From: Prochlorococcus sp. AG-402-B05
Lineage (GTDB): Bacteria > Cyanobacteriota > Cyanobacteriia > PCC-6307 > Cyanobiaceae
Length of the DNA: 64,000 bases
Reading direction: 5' to 3'
Assembly (NCBI GenBank): GCA_003279635.1
Contig: QCHK01000003.1
Location: 1-64,000, forward strand
In this document: positions 1 through 9,376 of the stretch, one piece after another
Layout of the letters: the number at the start of each line of letters is the position of its first letter
How positions within the stretch are numbered: position 1 is the first letter of the stretch
Notes under the pieces: model-generated
What the model was told of the DNA's origin: nothing
The model's input: only the letters and a program-made list of their open reading frames with translations
Databases searched by the model: none
Made by a program: the position numbers and the translations under genes

Positions 1-62
1 AGACTCGTTCTGCTGGAATAGTAGTGGAGGCCTTACAGCCTCCGTGGATCAATTGGGTAATA
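1..62 (-). repeat. left attachment repeat: duplicate of the tmRNA 3' tail
   Basis: This stretch copies the tail of the tmRNA coding piece at 9006-9067. Bases 43-62 match 9048-9067 exactly (20 bp) and 7-19 match 9012-9024 exactly (13 bp). Between them the sequence differs, but both copies can still fold a hairpin there: GGAGGC/GCCTCC at 26-31/38-43 and GAGGCC/GGCCTC at 9031-9036/9043-9048. A partial copy of a tmRNA or tRNA gene at the far end of an integrase-bearing region is the normal footprint of site-specific integration. The exact 20-mer is the likely crossover core. Bases 1-42 would be the original chromosomal tail. The window starts inside this copy. Confidence 0.85.
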
Positions 63-166
63 GGAATGATTCCTGTGTAGTCTACAACTGGGATCTTAGG
101 GAGAAGCTAATGCTGACAGTGTGTTTTGCTTTGTTTCGTGTTGTCAGATTTTGTTGTTGATTGTAT

Positions 167-2398: not shown

Positions 2399-4810
2399 AT
2401 GCAAGTAGAAACCAAAATCGATCTGGTGGACTGGGATCAATTCGAGTTGATGCTAGTCGCAACAGATAATCCAGCTCCTGTTGTTGGTCTATTTCCTCCT
2501 AAAACCTCACTGCCTTGTATCCATCACAGGTGGAATCCTGATGGGGCAACATCCAAGCAGTTTGTTGAGCGCAAATTAAGGGAAAATCCACAGTTAAGTT
2601 TGGGAATTGTTCCTAATCCATCTCTACCGCAACCAAGTGATTGGGGAACTAAACCTGAACACCTCAATAAACGAGGTAAGCCAAAGATCTGGGGCGCTAG
2701 CAATAAACATATTGCAGGCTCCAAATTGATTTGGACTGAAGGTGATGGTGCCTTATCTATTGAGGATCAGTATGAAATTATTCGAGAAGCTTTTGCCTTA
2801 GAACCTTCTTTTGTTATTTGGAGTGGTGGCAAGAGCTTGCACCCTTACTGGAAATTATCGGAACCTATTTCACCTGAAAAGTTTAAAGAATTGCAGATAA
2901 GGCTTGCAGCTCAAATGAAGGCTTGCAGCGAAGACTTTGGGGTTGATGAGAGCTTAAATAATCCAGCTCGAATTATGCGCTCCGCTGGTGGATTGCATTC
3001 GAGAACTCAACAGCGCTGTCACTTCAAAAACATAACAACACTTATTTATGGGATTGATTTTATTGAGAAGTTTTTAGACCCTGTTCCACAATTGCAGAAG
3101 GCTTCAAAGCCAAGATTTTTATCTAAAAGAACTATTGCTGATGAAGGTTGGTGGGAAAGGCAAACGGATGAAGGGCGACATCAAATTGCAGTTGAAATGC
3201 TTGGCTATTTACCTAAGCGAAATGTTGAAGGACGCGGCGAGAGGAAGACTTGTATCTCTGCCCTTTTTGCTTTGAAAGGATGGTTCGGAGAAAGTGAAAC
3301 CGCTCAAATTTGTACTGAAGCAAACTGGTTCGGGAACTTTTGGGATCCTCTTAAGGAGCTTCCATCACTAGATCATCCAACAAATTCAATTGGAACTTTG
3401 ATTGAACTGGCTAGGCAGGCTGGATGGAGTGGAGATCAATTCTTTAAGCAGAAGTGGAGTGAGACCCAACAGGACAAGCCAAAGATCAAGCTTGAGGATC
3501 TTTTTCCTCCTGAAATAGTTCAGGCTCTAAGAACAGTTACTAAGTTTTTGCCATACCCAGACACCCTTATTGCAACAACATATTTGGCGGGTTGTTCAGG
3601 TCTTTTGAAGCTTGGATCAACCATCAATCTCAATCCTTTGAGTGGTTTCGTTGTTCCTTTGAACTTGTATGTCATTACCGTTGGCTGCACTGGCAGCAAA
3701 AAATCACCTTTGCAAAAAGCACTGATTGATGGCCCCATAGAGAAGTTAAAGAAGAGCGCAAAATCTGAATATCAAAAGATCCTTTCTGATTGGTTTAGAG
3801 CAGATAAAGACAGTCGAGGGCCGAAACCAACTCCTACTTATTTAGTTGTTCAGAACGTCACCGAAGAAGCTCTGGAAATGATTCTTGTAGACCATGAGAA
3901 CAAGCAAAAGGGCCTCCTTTATTGCAGGGATGAAATTAAGGGGATTTTTAATTTTGATAAGTACAAATCAGGTAAAGGGAGCGAACAAGAACAACTCCTC
4001 GAGCTTTATGACGGCGGCGGTTTTACAACCATTAGAAAACAAGAAAGGAGGATTTGTGAGAAGACTCATTTGAGTCTTTATGGAGGGATTCAACCTCCAA
4101 TTTTGGCCAAACTTCAAGGGTCTTCGGATCACACTGGTAAATGGGCTCGAGTCCTTTTTTCACCTGTTCCAACTAATCCAGTCAAGCTCGCTGTTGCGAT
4201 TAGTGCAGAGGAGCGGAAGGCCTTTGCAGCGGCAAAAGAAAAGCTCTCCTCTCTTGCCTCAGATATAAGGTTTTCCAGCGGGTTTCAATTTGAACTTGAT
4301 GATGAAGCTATAAGGTTTTTTGCAGATTATGAGTTTGAAAAGCAAAAGGAGGCTAAGGCTATTGCTAGCAAGCGTGCTTCTCATGCAGCGATAAAAAATA
4401 AAACAGCGGGAAAAGTTGGAAGGATTGCTGGCTTACTTCATCATTTAAACGTCATTACAAAAAGGGCTGATGTTGAAGACTCAGTTGGAATAGACGTCTT
4501 TGAAAAAGCAATTCGATTGGTTGAATTTTCAGACGCTTTCGCAATGCAATTCCAAACGGATAGTGGCCGAACTGAAAACCAAAAATGGATGAAGCGCCTC
4601 CATACATTGGCCTGCAAATCAAAATCTAAGACAATGACTTGGACAGAATTACGAGATAAACTTTCCAGTCAGGAAAAAACTACTCTTACTCCTGAAATGA
4701 GAAAAGAAGCTTTCGCCCAACTGGAAGAAGCTAATTTTGGAAAGCTTAAAACTGGCCCTCAAGGTGGATTGATTTATCAAGCTATCGCTGATTGGCCTGA
4801 GGATGTCTGA
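2399..4810 (+). CDS. primase-helicase fusion (AEP-type primase + DUF3987)
   Basis: 803 aa, the replication protein of the element. The N-terminal 220 residues carry motifs typical of archaeo-eukaryotic primases of mobile elements: WTEGDG (about 112-117, acidic metal site), SGGKSLHPYWKL (about 142-153, nucleotide-binding Ser-x-His), and NPARIMRSAGGLH (about 188-200). A linker (220-360) leads to a DUF3987-type ATPase domain with Walker A GCTGSKKSP (about 429-437) and an acidic motif LLYCRDEIKGIF (about 507-518). Primase plus ATPase in one chain suggests unwinding and priming from a specific origin; a repeat cluster 750 bp downstream (5553-5772) is a candidate. Start ATG 2399. Domain calls rest on motifs I can see, not on a profile search. 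Confidence 0.82.
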   Translation: MQVETKIDLVDWDQFELMLVATDNPAPVVGLFPPKTSLPCIHHRWNPDGATSKQFVERKLRENPQLSLGIVPNPSLPQPSDWGTKPEHLNKRGKPKIWGASNKHIAGSKLIWTEGDGALSIEDQYEIIREAFALEPSFVIWSGGKSLHPYWKLSEPISPEKFKELQIRLAAQMKACSEDFGVDESLNNPARIMRSAGGLHSRTQQRCHFKNITTLIYGIDFIEKFLDPVPQLQKASKPRFLSKRTIADEGWWERQTDEGRHQIAVEMLGYLPKRNVEGRGERKTCISALFALKGWFGESETAQICTEANWFGNFWDPLKELPSLDHPTNSIGTLIELARQAGWSGDQFFKQKWSETQQDKPKIKLEDLFPPEIVQALRTVTKFLPYPDTLIATTYLAGCSGLLKLGSTINLNPLSGFVVPLNLYVITVGCTGSKKSPLQKALIDGPIEKLKKSAKSEYQKILSDWFRADKDSRGPKPTPTYLVVQNVTEEALEMILVDHENKQKGLLYCRDEIKGIFNFDKYKSGKGSEQEQLLELYDGGGFTTIRKQERRICEKTHLSLYGGIQPPILAKLQGSSDHTGKWARVLFSPVPTNPVKLAVAISAEERKAFAAAKEKLSSLASDIRFSSGFQFELDDEAIRFFADYEFEKQKEAKAIASKRASHAAIKNKTAGKVGRIAGLLHHLNVITKRADVEDSVGIDVFEKAIRLVEFSDAFAMQFQTDSGRTENQKWMKRLHTLACKSKSKTMTWTELRDKLSSQEKTTLTPEMRKEAFAQLEEANFGKLKTGPQGGLIYQAIADWPEDV

Positions 4811-4824
4811 TCGCTTAAAACCAG

Positions 4825-4838
4825 CTAAAAGATAATTA
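4825..4838 (+). promoter_or_regulatory. shared 14-mer upstream of a paralogous gene (copy 1)
   Basis: CTAAAAGATAATTA is identical to 8533-8546. Each copy precedes a member of the same small protein family (genes at 4856 and 8595). GATAAT inside it could serve as a -10 box. The spacing to the start codon is 17 bp here and 48 bp at the other copy. Confidence 0.5.
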
Positions 4839-4855
4839 ATTAGAATTGTGATCGG

Positions 4856-5179
4856 ATGGTTAAAGCTGTAAATTCAACTGTTTATGAGGCAAGTGATGGT
4901 GAAATTTTTAAAAATGAGGAACGTTGTAAATGCTATGAAGAGACTCTTCTCGAAAACGGCATAAAGTTTAGAGATGAATTGATTGCCGCCATCGAAGATA
5001 AGGAGACTGATTGGACTCCAGAATTTGTGCATTTTATAAAATCAATTCCTGACCATAGTGCAAGAAATATTATGCGAGATGTTTTTAATGCAAAGGAAGC
5101 TTGGGATGAGGAGAATGAATGGGATCATGAAGCGCATGAAAAAGATCTCCTCGATGAAAAGGATTTAGATTATTTTTGA
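4856..5179 (+). CDS. element paralog family member A (107 aa, unknown function)
   Basis: Unknown function. The N-terminal part, VYEASDGEIFKNEERCKCYEE, matches gene 5195-5542 (VYKACDGQIFKNEKRCKEYEE) and more weakly gene 8595-8939 (TFDGKEFNNEKEAEEYE). The shared pattern is aromatic-x(3)-DGxxFxNExxxxxYE. The middle ENGIKFRDELIAAIED also matches the next gene, while the acidic C-terminus (WDEENEWDHEAHEKD) is its own. No signal peptide or membrane segment. Only 15 bp separate it from the next paralog, so they are a tandem duplication and likely co-transcribed. The acidic character would suit a decoy or inhibitor protein, but that is speculation. Confidence 0.75.
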   Translation: MVKAVNSTVYEASDGEIFKNEERCKCYEETLLENGIKFRDELIAAIEDKETDWTPEFVHFIKSIPDHSARNIMRDVFNAKEAWDEENEWDHEAHEKDLLDEKDLDYF

Positions 5180-5194
5180 ATTAAAAGCAATCCA

Positions 5195-5542
5195 ATGGTT
5201 GAACGAATTGATACTTCGATCGTCTATAAGGCATGTGATGGTCAGATTTTTAAGAATGAGAAACGGTGTAAAGAATACGAAGAGGGAGTTATTTCAAACG
5301 GAATCAAGAATAGAGATAATTTAATTGCGGCTATAGAAGCTGAAAATCTCAGTTGTGCATGTGGGCCAATGACCCCATGCGCTCCAGAATTTTTGGAATT
5401 AATAAAATCCACCCCAGACAGCAGATCGTGGGCTGTCATGAAGGCTATTTACTATTCTCATATGATGTTTGAACGTAGAATTGATGATGGGTATCAACAA
5501 CTTGAAGCTCTATTACTAGAACACAAGGATTCAATTAACTGA
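5195..5542 (+). CDS. element paralog family member B (115 aa, unknown function)
   Basis: Tandem duplicate of the preceding gene (DGQIFKNEKRCKEYEE; NGIKNRDNLIAAIEA). It differs by a short Cys-rich insert (CACGPMTPC, about residues 51-59) that could bind a metal or form a disulphide, and by a neutral, helical C-terminus. No stop or start oddity; ATG 5195. Function not recognised. It is the last gene before the repeat-rich gap at 5543-5857. Confidence 0.75.
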   Translation: MVERIDTSIVYKACDGQIFKNEKRCKEYEEGVISNGIKNRDNLIAAIEAENLSCACGPMTPCAPEFLELIKSTPDSRSWAVMKAIYYSHMMFERRIDDGYQQLEALLLEHKDSIN

Positions 5543-5857
5543 AAATTATTGAACATAGGGGAAACATAGGGGACATCTAAAGTCCCCTATCAAAACCGTT
5601 GGGCCAACACCTTCTCAGAAAGATAAGGGACTTAAGGGAGTCTTTTTTTCTTTTTATTTATGGTTGTGTGTGTGGCCCTTCAGTTTGCCCATTTGTCTTA
5701 TTATCTCCCCCCCCTCTCCCTTACTCCCCTATGTTTTAAAATCCTTTACAGTGCAGGCGATCTTATAGGGGATTCGCTTAGTCCCTCATGTTCTTTTGAT
5801 GTTCGGGAAAGTGCTTATTTTTGTAGGAAAATATATGTATTACTTACTTTTTTAGCA
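5543..5857. other. repeat-rich gap, candidate replication origin
   Basis: This 315-bp gap carries the 10-mer ACATAGGGGA at 5553-5562 and 5564-5573, its exact reverse complement TCCCCTATGT at 5725-5734, and shorter forms at 5583-5590 (inverted, TCCCCTAT) and 5765-5772 (ATAGGGGA). There is also a pyrimidine tract at 5702-5730. Clustered short repeats, a strong hairpin and closeness to a primase-helicase are the usual look of an iteron origin. The alternative is that the repeats are operator sites for an element regulator. A longer reading frame spans the gap (from 5660), but only its end from ATG 5858 looks like protein. Confidence 0.5.
5566..5590 (+). terminator. perfect 9-bp hairpin after the paralog pair
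   Basis: ATAGGGGAC (5566-5574) pairs with GTCCCCTAT (5582-5590) around a 7-base loop. It lies 24 bp after the stop at 5542, so it could end that transcript, though no U-run follows at once. It overlaps the ACATAGGGGA repeats and may instead be part of the origin. Confidence 0.45.
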
Positions 5858-6067
5858 ATGGTTTCATTTAACGAAATAAATCGACTACAAGAAAAGATCA
5901 ATCGAATTGCCCCGCAAATTGCGCCACCTAAATTGAAGATAAATATCTATCAATCAGGCGAGGAAATCCCAGAAAATAAAAGTCCATGGGAAATGAGTGT
6001 TTATGTCGAGGGCAAGGAAGAAAGTTGGGCCTTTAATAGTCAAAATCGGCCAATTCATAGGACATGA
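5858..6067 (+). CDS. small hypothetical protein (69 aa)
   Basis: Start set at ATG 5858 because the reading frame upstream (from 5660) is low-complexity and lies on the repeat tract. The protein begins with an amphipathic helix (NEINRLQEKINRIAPQI) followed by a strand-rich part ending WEMSVYVEGKEESWAFN. Family not recognised. Its TGA overlaps the ATG of the next small gene (ATGA), a sign of coupling. Confidence 0.5.
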   Translation: MVSFNEINRLQEKINRIAPQIAPPKLKINIYQSGEEIPENKSPWEMSVYVEGKEESWAFNSQNRPIHRT

Positions 6068-6189
6068 GTTACTTCGACCAACTCGAGTTCAAAGAGAAAG
6101 TGAATGATCTTTACGATGAATACAAGCTCTCTATTCAACGGGAAGAAATCGCAGAAATTCTTAGAGAAGTAGCAGATTCAATTGGGTAA
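6064..6189 (+). CDS. small hypothetical helical protein (41 aa)
   Basis: ATG 6064 to TAA 6189, overlapping the previous stop by 4 bases. Acidic and helical (FKEKVNDLYDEYK, EEIAEILREVADSIG). Read directly; support is the coupling and protein-like composition. No function can be given. Confidence 0.45.
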   Translation: MSYFDQLEFKEKVNDLYDEYKLSIQREEIAEILREVADSIG

Positions 6190-6335
6190 AAAAAAAGTGG
6201 GTTGCCAATCCACTGTGGTGGAGTCAGGCGTATTCAAGTACTGCTCCTGAGTCGGTCTATAAGCCCTTCAGTGGTTTCCATGGTTCCTCATGGATTGTGC
6301 TTTTTAGCCCGCAGTGTTGTTAAGAGTTCGGCCCT

Positions 6336-6911
6336 TTAAATAGAACTCAAGGCCATTAATTCATCAGATTCAGAAATATCTATGTATTGGCTTAATTGAT
6401 TCAAATTTTTATGGCCTGTGAATTTTGAGACAACTTTTAGCGAAACTTTTTTGCTCATATTTGTTGCAAGCGAGCGCCTGAAACTATGCAAACTAATTCC
6501 ACTCGGCAATCCAATATTTTTAAGAGTGGCCCTTAAAGCTAAATCAGCATTTTGTCTGGTCATAGATTTATAAGTTCCATACCGACTTGGAAAACAAAAT
6601 TCTCTATTAGTCGTGGCCCGACCGTATTTAGCAACCCACAAAGTTCGATAAAAATCTATTTCCTTTCTAAGTCTGGGATCAATTAAAACTTCACGAGATT
6701 GTTTTGTCTTTGTGGTTGATTTTATGAATACAATTCTTTCTTCATGGATAGCAGCCCAAGTTAAGAGCAAAGTTTCTTGGATTCTGGAACCTGTAAATCT
6801 TTGAATGCTCCAAATGCAGCGCATTTCTGGTGTTGGCGCTGCATCCAATAAGGTGTCTAATTGTTTTGGATCCAAGGTTGTTGCCTGACCTGATCCATTG
6901 GTTTTAGGCAT
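6336..6911 (-). CDS. second, short tyrosine recombinase
   Basis: 191 aa, mostly the catalytic domain of a tyrosine recombinase. First Arg in RFTGSRIQETLLLTW (about residue 40), an intact HxxR box in ISLHSFRRSLATNM (about 142-155), then FTGHKNLNQLSQYID with late His and nucleophile Tyr (about 165-180). The N-terminal core-binding domain is missing, since only about 35 residues precede the first Arg. It is the only minus-strand gene in the element. It may be a truncated relic, a resolvase-like or invertase-like enzyme, or the recombinase of an older nested element. All catalytic residues appear present, so it may be active. Confidence 0.82.
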   Translation of the reverse strand: MPKTNGSGQATTLDPKQLDTLLDAAPTPEMRCIWSIQRFTGSRIQETLLLTWAAIHEERIVFIKSTTKTKQSREVLIDPRLRKEIDFYRTLWVAKYGRATTNREFCFPSRYGTYKSMTRQNADLALRATLKNIGLPSGISLHSFRRSLATNMSKKVSLKVVSKFTGHKNLNQLSQYIDISESDELMALSSI

Positions 6912-7324
6912 GGTTTAAGAAGTTATTGAATTGTCGTTTGGACTGAAATGACAAGTGTCTTGCAATTACTAACGCTCTGACCCTTGGCAACCCAGCTATA
7001 AAAAACGACAAGTCAAATGGTTTATTTGTCTTATATCTATTATCGCAATTTGTATTCCTTTGTTGTTGTTTGTTTTGCTTTGTTTTTACACATTAAAAGT
7101 TATATTACTAGAGCTTAATATGACGAATTAAAATATTAATAATGCTCATCTAATTTGGCTTTAATATTATCACTCTTTATTAGTTATAGGGGGGAGATAG
7201 CAACTTTTTTTAGGCTATATCAGGCTCCCTAGAACTTACTTAATAAACAAGAAATATATAACTAGATAATACTTAAAACTTATTATATTTGTTATATACT
7301 TAATAAATAATAACTTATTAATTC
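6912..7324. promoter_or_regulatory. AT-rich divergent intergenic region with inverted repeats
   Basis: This 413-bp gap separates the minus-strand recombinase from the plus-strand operon at 7325. TTGTCGTTT (6931-6939) and its reverse complement AAACGACAA (7003-7011) bracket GACAAGTGTC (6950-6959), itself an inverted repeat. GACAAGT recurs at 7007-7013. A single ATTTGGCTTTAA at 7153-7164 matches half of the element end repeat. Bases 7225-7320 are almost pure A/T with repeated ACTTAATAAA-like words. It probably holds both promoters and operator or recombinase sites. Confidence 0.45.
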
Positions 7325-7567: not shown

Positions 7568-8055
7568 ACTTTCCTTCAACAATTAATTACGATCAAGCTT
7601 ACGTTGATTTCTGCAATCGGAATGGTTTAACCGTAGGAGTTACACCCAAGAGCGCCAAAGATATGGGGTTGCAGATGGAATTGATTATGAGGGAGGAAGA
7701 CCCTTATCTTTTCCAGAATTTAACCAATCCAGATCCAAACAATCTGCCTGCAGATGTAAAAATCAGGCACCAAAAGCAACAGTATTGGACATCTGATGTG
7801 GAGGCACTTGAGAGAGCGGGATTTACTGCAGCGGCGGAACACATCAAGAGTGAAATAGCTCAATCTCGTCAGCAACTATTGGATAAGAAAATTGCTGAAT
7901 CACAAAAGCAGCAACAAATAGAACAAGCAAAAATTAAAGCTTGGCAAGATTTACCTCTTGGACATCCTGAAAAGCAGCCAAGTCCTGAAAGTGTTCAGAG
8001 AACAAGGGCAATGTGGGGAATTACTGGAGCGCCAAGTTGGGAGTTGAATGGCTGA
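7564..8055 (+). CDS. hypothetical element protein (163 aa)
   Basis: Not recognised. The N-terminal half is mixed alpha/beta. Residues about 80-130 are a long Gln/Lys/Glu-rich helix (AESQKQQQIEQAKIKAWQDL), possibly a coiled coil. The C-terminus (RTRAMWGITGAPSWELNG) is short and hydrophobic. The ATG overlaps the previous stop and the end overlaps the next start (8048), so the three proteins are coupled and probably made in fixed ratio. Head or packaging accessory roles would fit the neighbourhood, but nothing in the sequence shows it. Confidence 0.6.
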   Translation: MNFPSTINYDQAYVDFCNRNGLTVGVTPKSAKDMGLQMELIMREEDPYLFQNLTNPDPNNLPADVKIRHQKQQYWTSDVEALERAGFTAAAEHIKSEIAQSRQQLLDKKIAESQKQQQIEQAKIKAWQDLPLGHPEKQPSPESVQRTRAMWGITGAPSWELNG

Positions 8056-8518
8056 TAAAGGTAGGCCCAACGGTTCTATAACCAAAGAAGTTCCTCAGAA
8101 AGTCTTTGATGCCCTTCAACTGTATGTTTGGGGGACTAAGGAAGATGGGAAGAACATTAGTTGGGCTGATGCTGCGGAGGCTGCTGGCTGCCATATACGT
8201 ACGTTGAGGAAATATAGGCAGTTCACAGAGTGTGAACGCTTCTTGAAAGATGAAAGACTTAGAAAAGCAGATGAAAAAAGGGAATCTCTAAATGCTGCTC
8301 ATGAAATCTTGCTAGATAAAGCTCCAGCGATTGCAAACCGACTTACTTCAATTGCACTCAATCCAAGAACTAAAGATTATGTAGCGGCAAATGCTTGTTC
8401 AGATATTTTCAGGATCATGCACGAAGGCATCACAGAACAAGAATTGCGTAGAAAGTTAGAAGTAATAAAAGAACAAATTGCAGAAATTGAACGTGGTGGC
8501 CCGATAGTTGATGTTTGA
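8048..8518 (+). CDS. HTH protein resembling a phage terminase small subunit
   Basis: 156 aa. Residues about 38-58 (SWADAAEAAGCHIRTLRKY) form a clear helix-turn-helix of the kind found at the N-terminus of small terminase subunits. A helical middle follows (LLDKAPAIANRLTSIALNPRT) and then a C-terminal coiled coil (EQELRRKLEVIKEQIAEIE). This domain order, an HTH followed by oligomerising helices, fits a DNA-recognition subunit for packaging. No large terminase is in the element, so if the call is right the protein would redirect a helper phage's packaging motor. The alternative is a plain transcription regulator. Confidence 0.55.
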   Translation: MADKGRPNGSITKEVPQKVFDALQLYVWGTKEDGKNISWADAAEAAGCHIRTLRKYRQFTECERFLKDERLRKADEKRESLNAAHEILLDKAPAIANRLTSIALNPRTKDYVAANACSDIFRIMHEGITEQELRRKLEVIKEQIAEIERGGPIVDV

Positions 8519-8594: not shown

Positions 8595-8939
8595 ATGCCT
8601 AAGCCAAAAGAAGTCGTAAAAGTTACTTCATGGGAAACATTCGATGGAAAAGAATTTAATAATGAAAAAGAAGCCGAGGAGTATGAGTCAATACTCTGGG
8701 CGAAGTTACAGGAAAACTTTCGTGGAATAAATAATGTTTTCAAAAATTCTAATAATCCTTATGAATTCATAGATATTCTCGATGAGGGTTCTTCTCTTTG
8801 GAATGAAGATGATGATCTACATGGAGATTGGCCTTCAGAAAAGAAAAAAGAAGGTTTAATGTTTTTAAAGGTCATGTACAGAATCCACAAATATCTTGAA
8901 CGTCTGGATAGAAAAAGAGAGATCACTCATCTTTTCTAA
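8595..8939 (+). CDS. element paralog family member C (114 aa, unknown function)
   Basis: Distant third member of the family at 4856 and 5195: SWETFDGKEFNNEKEAEEYES fits the DGxxFxNExxxxxYE pattern. The rest is acidic and helical (DILDEGSSLWNEDDDL). It is the last gene before the right end of the element, 14 bp from the end repeat. The shared 14-mer upstream suggests control in common with member A. Function unknown. Confidence 0.7.
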   Translation: MPKPKEVVKVTSWETFDGKEFNNEKEAEEYESILWAKLQENFRGINNVFKNSNNPYEFIDILDEGSSLWNEDDDLHGDWPSEKKKEGLMFLKVMYRIHKYLERLDRKREITHLF

Positions 8940-9005: not shown

Positions 9006-9285
9006 AGACTTGTTCTGCTGGAATGAGAGTGAGGCCCTCGCAGGCCTCGTGGATCAATTGGGTAATAAGGCTGACCTGACCCCATCTCCTAAAAGATCAA
9101 GCAGCAACAGGGGCTGTTTGACGGGAGAAACTAACGATGTTGTTAGCAGTTATGGTTTTGCTCTGACCGAGCAGGCTTCAGTCACTCGCCTGATACCCCG
9201 TCGAAGCCATTGCAGCCCCATTTATGGAGCTGAGCGGAATCGAACCGCTGTCCGAGATATTGGTGTGAATCACCTAGTCCATTAG
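9006..9285 (-). ncRNA. ssrA: permuted two-piece tmRNA, also the attachment site of the element
   Basis: tmRNA rescues stalled ribosomes. On the minus strand the acceptor piece comes first: T arm AGCGG-TTCGATT-CCGCT, then 3' end CAGCTCCA ending at 9225. A 5-base spacer (9220-9224) follows, then the mature 5' end GGGGCTG at 9219-9213 and the tag frame at 9147-9097. GGGGCTG pairs with CAGCTCC to form the acceptor stem, with one G-U. This order, 3' half before 5' half, is the circularly permuted form known from marine picocyanobacteria. The tag reads ANNIVSFSRQTAPVAA followed by TGA. The tail of the coding piece (9006-9067) is duplicated at 1-62; the copy here was probably supplied by the element. 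Outer ends are approximate. Confidence 0.92.
9048..9067 (-). repeat. right attachment core (20 bp)
   Basis: Identical to 43-62. It lies in the tail of the tmRNA coding piece, so recombination here leaves the tag and acceptor parts untouched while replacing the terminal hairpin. Confidence 0.75.
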
Positions 9286-9376
9286 AAAATAGACATATAT
9301 ATTCTGACAGATCTTCTGGAATTAATCGATTAATGTTTAAAGAACTGCTTTATCCTTTTTTAATAACTTAAAAGTA

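Follow-up and report, generated by a model that had tools for sequence, protein, structure and literature searches.

Where does the element integrated at the start of this contig begin its replication, and which protein recognizes the site? The DNA analysed here (the window) is the first 64 kb of contig 3 of a 1.76-Mb picocyanobacterial genome, the contig beginning at window base 1. It carries a cluster of short repeats 3' of a gene for an 803-aa primase-helicase, and the original prediction was that the cluster is an iteron-type replication origin bound by that protein.

The integrated element

The tmRNA gene (9006-9314, minus strand) forms the border of the element. One end of this gene (9006-9074) is repeated at window 1-69; the 69-bp copy is 78% identical and is likely to be an attachment-site duplication with a diverged tmRNA end. 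Its location at base 1 suggests an integrated element of ~9 kb at the tmRNA gene, with a left limit that is uncertain because the contig starts there. In the Rfam search the tmRNA-related matches alone were credible, while AgvB and mir-7386 fell under their gathering scores. The available text of PMC10872708 describes tycheposons with a tyrosine recombinase and a tRNA at the border, whereas here the border is a tmRNA gene and the candidate recombinases are an integrase-family protein of 191 aa (6336-6911, minus strand; Pfam Phage_integrase, E 3.3e-22) and a 401-aa ORF from 197, which resembles a tyrosine recombinase by eye only and is without a Pfam or PHROG match. The integrase gene lies on the opposite strand within the element and may be the remnant of a second integration.

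When the element was examined for the AlpA or Stl regulator and the small terminase of PICIs, a small protein encoded at 1809-2051 gave HTH_17 (E 0.014) and DUF1233 (E 0.029), neither of which reached the cut-off, and the protein encoded at 8048-8518 gave only weak HTH matches. The gene for the AEP primase-DUF3987 helicase, the proposed replication initiator, occupies 2399..4810 on the plus strand and is followed by two plus-strand ORFs of 107 and 115 aa (4856-5179 and 5195-5542), which are absent from this place in G076, a genome of the same family under another genus label. By eye, their translations and that of the ORF at 8595-8939 begin alike, and the three are perhaps paralogues. The cluster had been placed in a gap about 750 bp past the primase-helicase; the distance holds, at 743 bp, but since the two ORFs intervene, the ORF-free gap is 5543-5857. 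Directly 3' of the cluster lies a small ORF of 69 aa (5858-6067; translation starting MVSFNEINRLQEKINRIAPQ). An ORF had been listed from 5660, but its true start is most likely 5858, where coding similarity to G076 begins.

A dense cluster of one repeated word

The predicted repeats were all recovered. The 10-mer ACATAGGGGA is present in three exact copies, two direct (5553-5562 and 5564-5573, plus strand) and one inverted (5725-5734, minus strand), and two shorter forms consist of the 8-mer ATAGGGGA at 5583-5590 (minus) and 5765-5772 (plus). All five copies of ATAGGGGA in the 64 kb fall inside the cluster. Iteron 1 (5555..5562, plus; extended to ACATAGGGGA from 5553) is followed 11 bp later by iteron 2 (5566..5573, plus), which pairs with the inverted iteron 3 (5583..5590, minus) in a 9-bp perfect hairpin with arms at 5566-5574 and 5582-5590; iteron 4 (5725..5732, minus) is inverted, and iteron 5 (5765..5772, plus) is again an exact copy of ATAGGGGA. 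The cluster also reaches further than first noted, through a weak direct copy, ATAAGGGA, at 5623..5630 (plus), where several relatives have a single direct copy ahead of an AT tract, and a weak inverted copy, TCCCTCATGTTC, at 5782..5793 (minus), which is 83% complementary to 5551-5562. The array in the window has only five full copies plus these two weak ones. A T-rich tract at 5641..5661 (plus), a possible melting site, separates the left and right iteron groups, and the 30 bp at 5632-5661 are 80% AT compared with 60% for the region. The pyrimidine tract proposed at 5702-5730 is present, although interrupted by two A. No DnaA-box-like word was found in the array.

Could G-rich words of this kind have clustered by chance? 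Words like ATAGGGGA are not rare genome-wide. Across the 1.76-Mb genome the 10-mer ACATAGGGGA is found three times, compared with four for its reversed control word; allowing up to one mismatch, its five matches in the 64 kb were equalled by 8 of 100 shuffles, and five exact copies of ATAGGGGA by 4 of 100. Counted as single words the copies are thus not unusual, but their clustering is. Within 5540-5800 there are 22 matching 8-mer pairs, against a shuffle mean of 1.56 and a maximum of 9, so that none of 1000 shuffles equalled the cluster; nor did any of 1000 yield five copies of one 8-mer in this interval. In repeat density the cluster ranks first among 3187 overlapping 260-bp windows of the 64 kb. 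These results confirm that the repeat cluster is real, and together with the relatives described below, which have the same place and layout with other words, they leave a chance origin with scarcely any probability at all.

A hairpin 3' of an operon might instead point to an RNA feature (a terminator, an attenuator or a small RNA). Several arrays in related elements open with a hairpin right past the helicase stop, and the window has one terminator-like match at 5768-5786. Such matches, however, are as frequent in shuffles (1.1, compared with 1 in 4700-6300), the hairpin at 5566-5590 has no T run after it, there is no Rfam match inside 5543-5857 at E values up to 1, and the copies stand in both orientations over about 240 bp. 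We consider an RNA feature exceedingly improbable.

The primase-helicase and its C-terminal domain

The 803-aa protein combines an AEP primase domain with DUF3987. Its Pfam match to DUF3987 has an E value of 6.8e-33, and residues 131-217 match PDB 6zp9, 'PrimPol AEP domain', by phmmer (E 1.9e-8). DUF3987 was also matched by all 30 aligned C-terminal halves of the family helicases. Elsewhere in the same assembly, on contig C31, a 732-aa open frame (L037) is distantly similar to the primase part (E 2.5e-11).

The full-length AlphaFold2 model, built from a two-row alignment, was unusable (pLDDT 34.3), so the fold search was limited to the C-terminal domain. Residues 720-803 (4556..4807, plus strand) are predicted by AlphaFold2 to form a winged helix, the proposed reader of the repeated word, in the order helix-strand-helix-helix-helix-strand-strand; the best model reached a pLDDT of 86.4 and the other four 57-76. 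In Foldseek searches against the PDB there was no match at E 0.001 or below, the best being weak at about 0.01. VIA-align of these matches gave Z values of 9-10 to LmrR/PadR regulators and MCM winged helices, and the structural neighbours also take in MarR-type regulators. Likeness of the predicted fold to regulators does not in itself show function. A PDB profile search of the C-terminal half returned ferritin as its sole match (E 0.0027), which we took as chance.

Arrays follow related helicase genes

Among 41 genomes of the genus the helicase was found only in the window's own, and the conservation test therefore rests on the wider family. A profile built from the helicases of the window and G076 identified relatives, with E values of 1e-30 or lower, in 40 of the 400 genomes of the family. 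We collected 56 distinct open-frame hits, some being two frames of one gene region, and kept the 30 genes, the window's included, that extend to the profile end with 200 bp or more of downstream sequence. We scored repeats over the 260 bp following each stop codon against shuffles, with a threshold of z>4.

Arrays passed this threshold in 16 of the 30 DUF3987 primase-helicase genes. Their top words differ widely (GTAGGAC, TCCCCCA, GGGGGAC, AGGTAGG, AGCCCAC, TCGGCAA, GAGGGAC, GCCAACA, CAGACAC, GTGTCCA, CGGTGGA and GGGTGGA). In 79 control windows further downstream, 78 scored at most 3.6, and the remaining one was the window's own array (z 7.3); upstream, one of 21 control windows exceeded z 4 (L099, 5.9). 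The 14 genes at or below z 4 comprise the window's and 13 of the 29 others. The window's gene scores -0.5 because its array is displaced 743 bp from the stop by the two ORFs. An array layout is visible by eye despite the failing score in L066-L068, L105, L096 and L099, whereas L035, L072, L082 and L084, all below z 4, show little array.

The other 26 hits did not reach the profile end or had less than 200 bp downstream. Two were too short, and 24 were tested apart, several of them N-terminal fragments, which do not finish where the helicase does; five of these exceeded z 4 (L038, L009, L102, L013 and L010), and L094 stood at 4.0. Outside the family, four of eight hits from the same class passed (L038, 23.0; L009, 35.1; L013, 8.5; L010, 5.5), where one of the eight is an N-terminal match only and L010 has no 7-mer in more than two copies. 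In G241, G343, G373, G159, G368 and G410, two to four places per genome match the AEP or the helicase part of L091; several match the AEP part only, in long open frames, and the AEP domain may combine with different helicases.

At the DNA level, 5540-5860 gave only short weak matches among 149 relatives besides the window itself (best E 0.0015) and one weak match among phages, in two records of the same phage; neither the exact double 10-mer nor the two-block pattern described below had a match in IMG/VR. When contigs were scanned for the helicase with degenerate peptides, no viral hit was confirmed; among genome contigs, a first scan found none and a second a single contig, the G076 record. 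With tblastn, phage records yielded two partial matches to the helicase, at 29% and 36% identity.

A shared layout with changing words

The closest comparison is with G076, whose helicase is 50% identical to the 803-aa protein and whose element has, by eye, a main gene order like the window's. The stretch right after the G076 helicase stop aligns with window 5550-5860. Here the word is swapped, GTAGGAC standing for ATAGGGGA, while the layout is kept: in both, two direct copies and one inverted copy come first, GTTGGGCCA and a T/C tract follow, and further inverted copies and then CCTTTnCAGTGCA lead up to the start of the small ORF. Within 5598..5618 (plus) lie blocks shared with relatives, GTTGGGCCA with G076 (GCTGGGCC in G338) and CCTTCTCAG with G338, and a further block, CCTTTACAGTGCA at 5743..5755 (plus), is common to the window and G076. 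The two-block pattern of GTTGGGCCA with the second block is found in two of the 400 family genomes, namely the window's and G076.

We laid out 21 arrays, using one hand-picked word per element. Counted from 5541, the window's copies stand at 14 and 25 (direct), 42 (inverted), 82 (direct), 184 (inverted) and 224 (direct). Those of L091, counted past the stop, stand at 8, 19 and 30 (direct), 44 (inverted), 95 (direct), 171, 179 and 187 (inverted), 227 (direct), and 242 and 260 (inverted). A full left group, with at least two direct copies and then an inverted one, is present in 10 of the 21 arrays, the window's included; under looser words L076 adds an eleventh, and in L065-L068 the left group has one direct and one inverted copy. 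Neighbouring direct copies of the left group are mostly spaced 7-13 bp apart. The left group is often succeeded by one lone direct copy and a stretch rich in AT, beyond which come one to three inverted copies and finally a mixture of copies; in the window two iteron sets flank the 80% AT tract. We defined the AT stretch as the AT-richest 30 bp, with the search confined to positions 50-230; it lies outside the groups in 3 of the 21 (L105, L086 and L103), and in L100 it is just 47% AT. When 23 arrays were searched for a shared motif other than the iterons, the result was G-rich stretches that were in part iteron sequence (information 15.2, compared with 11.3-12.3 in six crude shuffles run with fewer restarts), and it was not used. 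The proposed check, to look for the same words in related elements, is thus answered in an informative way: place and layout recur, with a different word.

The array stands directly ahead of the small ORF at 5858-6067, and iterons often serve in control as well, so the repeats could be an operator at which a regulator or the helicase controls the genes from 5858 or the helicase operon, with no origin involved. Yet among the downstream stretches compared, relatives of this ORF occur only beside the arrays of G076 and G338, whereas no fewer than 16 other elements have an array after the helicase. The array is 3' of the helicase gene, and its length of some 240 bp, with two groups and an AT tract, would be great for an operator. 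A scan of 4700-6300 for promoters, covering sigma-70-type sites only, gave 3 matches where shuffles gave 4.2; one lies at 5830-5858 on the minus strand. An operator without an origin is, in our judgement, unlikely.

Exchange of the C-terminus together with the array

In one set of relatives, the helicase C-terminus and the array have changed together. The helicase of L076 (from G246) is 95-97% identical in its core to those of L091 (G241) and L077 (G343) but 60% identical at the C-terminus. In DNA, L076 and L091 are 82-94% identical per 50-bp bin from -700 to -200 relative to the stop (80-100% per 20-bp bin from -400 to -200), fall to 22-80% from -200 to about +280, and return to 80-100% from +280 to +459. 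The control pair L077/L091 stays at 80-100% through this block, mostly above 90%. L076/L091 dips once more from +500 to +599 (56-62%), as the control pair does to a lesser extent (55% at +550). The drop and return in identity thus outline a block of ~480 bp that covers the final ~66 residues together with the entire array. Unrelated words stand at similar positions in the two arrays, TGTGGG/ATGGGGG-like words chosen by eye in L076 and TTGCCGA in L091. From the alignments, L076 compared with L091/L077 is a natural recombinant with one clear exchange event. L068 and L067 possibly represent a second exchange (86-98% identity before, 62-76% from -200), a less clear case since the two do not become similar again further downstream.

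The trend across all elements is less specific. Scoring the sharing of repeated 6-mers over 435 gene pairs binned by C-terminal identity, we found 0 of 251 pairs sharing words below 30%, 21 of 122 at 30-40%, 13 of 37 at 40-50%, 1 of 10 at 50-70% and 12 of 15 at 70% or above. The rank correlation with word sharing was 0.43 for C-terminal identity and 0.40 for core identity, too small a difference for this statistic by itself to point to the C-terminus; given these near-equal values and the 1 of 10 at 50-70%, the argument for a cassette rests mainly on L076 versus L091/L077. One genome, G241, holds two such elements with different words (TGGGGGA in L068, whose array is below z 4, and TTGCCGA in L091). 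On balance we favour the view that the winged helix (the last ~66-84 residues) and the adjacent ~280-bp array form a specificity cassette, exchanged as one block by recombination between otherwise similar elements, which would switch incompatibility type in one step and let several elements share one cell. The joint exchange of winged helix and array in a relative also argues for the 803-aa protein as the candidate binder.

Linkage to the helicase bears equally on whether the array is a packaging site (cos or pac) read by a terminase of the element or of a helper phage. Satellites often keep a small terminase at a position like that of the protein encoded at 8048-8518 near the right end, which has HTH matches, and a similar ORF is present in G076. 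The array, however, tracks the helicase gene and exchanges with the helicase C-terminus, and the matches of the 8048-8518 protein are all weak (HTH_3 and MerR below cut-off, and a PHROG of unknown function). A packaging site has, we believe, very little probability. Separately, the 13-mer TTATAGGGGGGAG is identical at window 7184-7196 and at 6756-6768 (minus) of L034, the G076 locus, in each case upstream of the weak-HTH ORF (8048-8518 in the window), and is common to both elements although their iteron words differ. It occurs once in the window's genome and in none of the other genomes among the 41 of the genus. We considered it as a copy of a phage promoter, packaging signal or cos site and dropped it as probable chance, because 10 viral contigs match the extended pattern in contexts that, except for three, are unlike.

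A putative origin and its proposed initiator

Taken together, the comparisons support the reading as an iteron origin: relatives have different words in an array of the same place and layout. We think it very probable that 5553-5793 is the replication origin of the element, with the winged helix of the 803-aa protein reading ATAGGGGA and the two forming an exchangeable matched cassette. Binding, melting, priming and replication are what we infer from the array and the helicase. The primase-helicase would bind the copies of ATAGGGGA through its C-terminal winged helix, probably as an oligomer on the left group (direct, direct, inverted) and on the right group. It would open the T-rich tract between the two groups and load its helicase, and its AEP domain would prime synthesis. 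The word is specific to each element, and winged helix and array would be a matched cassette that can be swapped as one unit.

The alpha protein of satellite P4 binds its origin (ori/crr), whose sites are not known to be placed like the array here. In the available text of PMC7145576 this protein is an initiating helicase fused to a primase. The closest model is the initiator-origin pair of SaPIs and PICIs rather than a plain iteron plasmid. The parts of PMC7581432 available describe the C-terminal domain of SaPI Rep as reading iterons directly downstream of the rep gene, and those of PMC6092414 put PICI origins right behind rep on its 3' side, where an AT-rich region sits between two sets of iterons. 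Likewise, the array is close 3' of the helicase gene in 16 of 30 genes (within 260 bp; 743 bp in the window), and two iteron sets surround an AT-rich tract in the window. A C-terminal reader, described for SaPI Rep in PMC7581432, would here be the predicted winged helix, whose counterpart in a relative was exchanged with the array. Unlike in SaPIs and PICIs, the proposed initiator is an AEP primase joined to a DUF3987 helicase, the host is a picocyanobacterium with no known helper phage, and two ORFs lie between the gene and the putative origin.

Other systems offer partial parallels. For SCCmec Cch2, the available text of PMC7581432 reports that the isolated C-terminal domain binds a putative origin, direct repeats downstream of the operon; unlike the 803-aa protein, Cch2 is of D5/SaPI5-Rep type, with three 5-nt iterons and a separate primase-polymerase. 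For plasmid pRN1, the portion of PMC4234260 at hand proposes an origin within 166 bp downstream of the primase-helicase gene, although this is a 100-nt stem-loop, unlike the iteron array here. In AEP fusions (the PrimQH and All3500 families), DUF3987 is predicted, in the text available from PMC5862659, to represent a novel family of helicases for replicating mobile elements. These fusions have the same domain make-up as the 803-aa protein; the word 'iteron' is absent from the main text of that paper, and we describe here a cognate array. In the portions covered of the literature on tycheposons, DUF3987 and mobile-element replication in Prochlorococcus and Synechococcus, a coverage that stops short of the original tycheposon paper, we found neither the array nor the cassette.

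This kind of origin is already known; what appears to be new is its link to cyanobacterial DUF3987 elements and the exchangeable cassette. If our reading is correct, these elements would extend the known origin kind to a DUF3987 helicase, and small integrative elements of ocean cyanobacteria would have a concrete origin and initiator, so that their excision and replication become testable. The elements would further provide a natural series of protein-word pairs for decoding how winged helices read DNA, and their replication specificity would be changed through the exchange of one small cassette.
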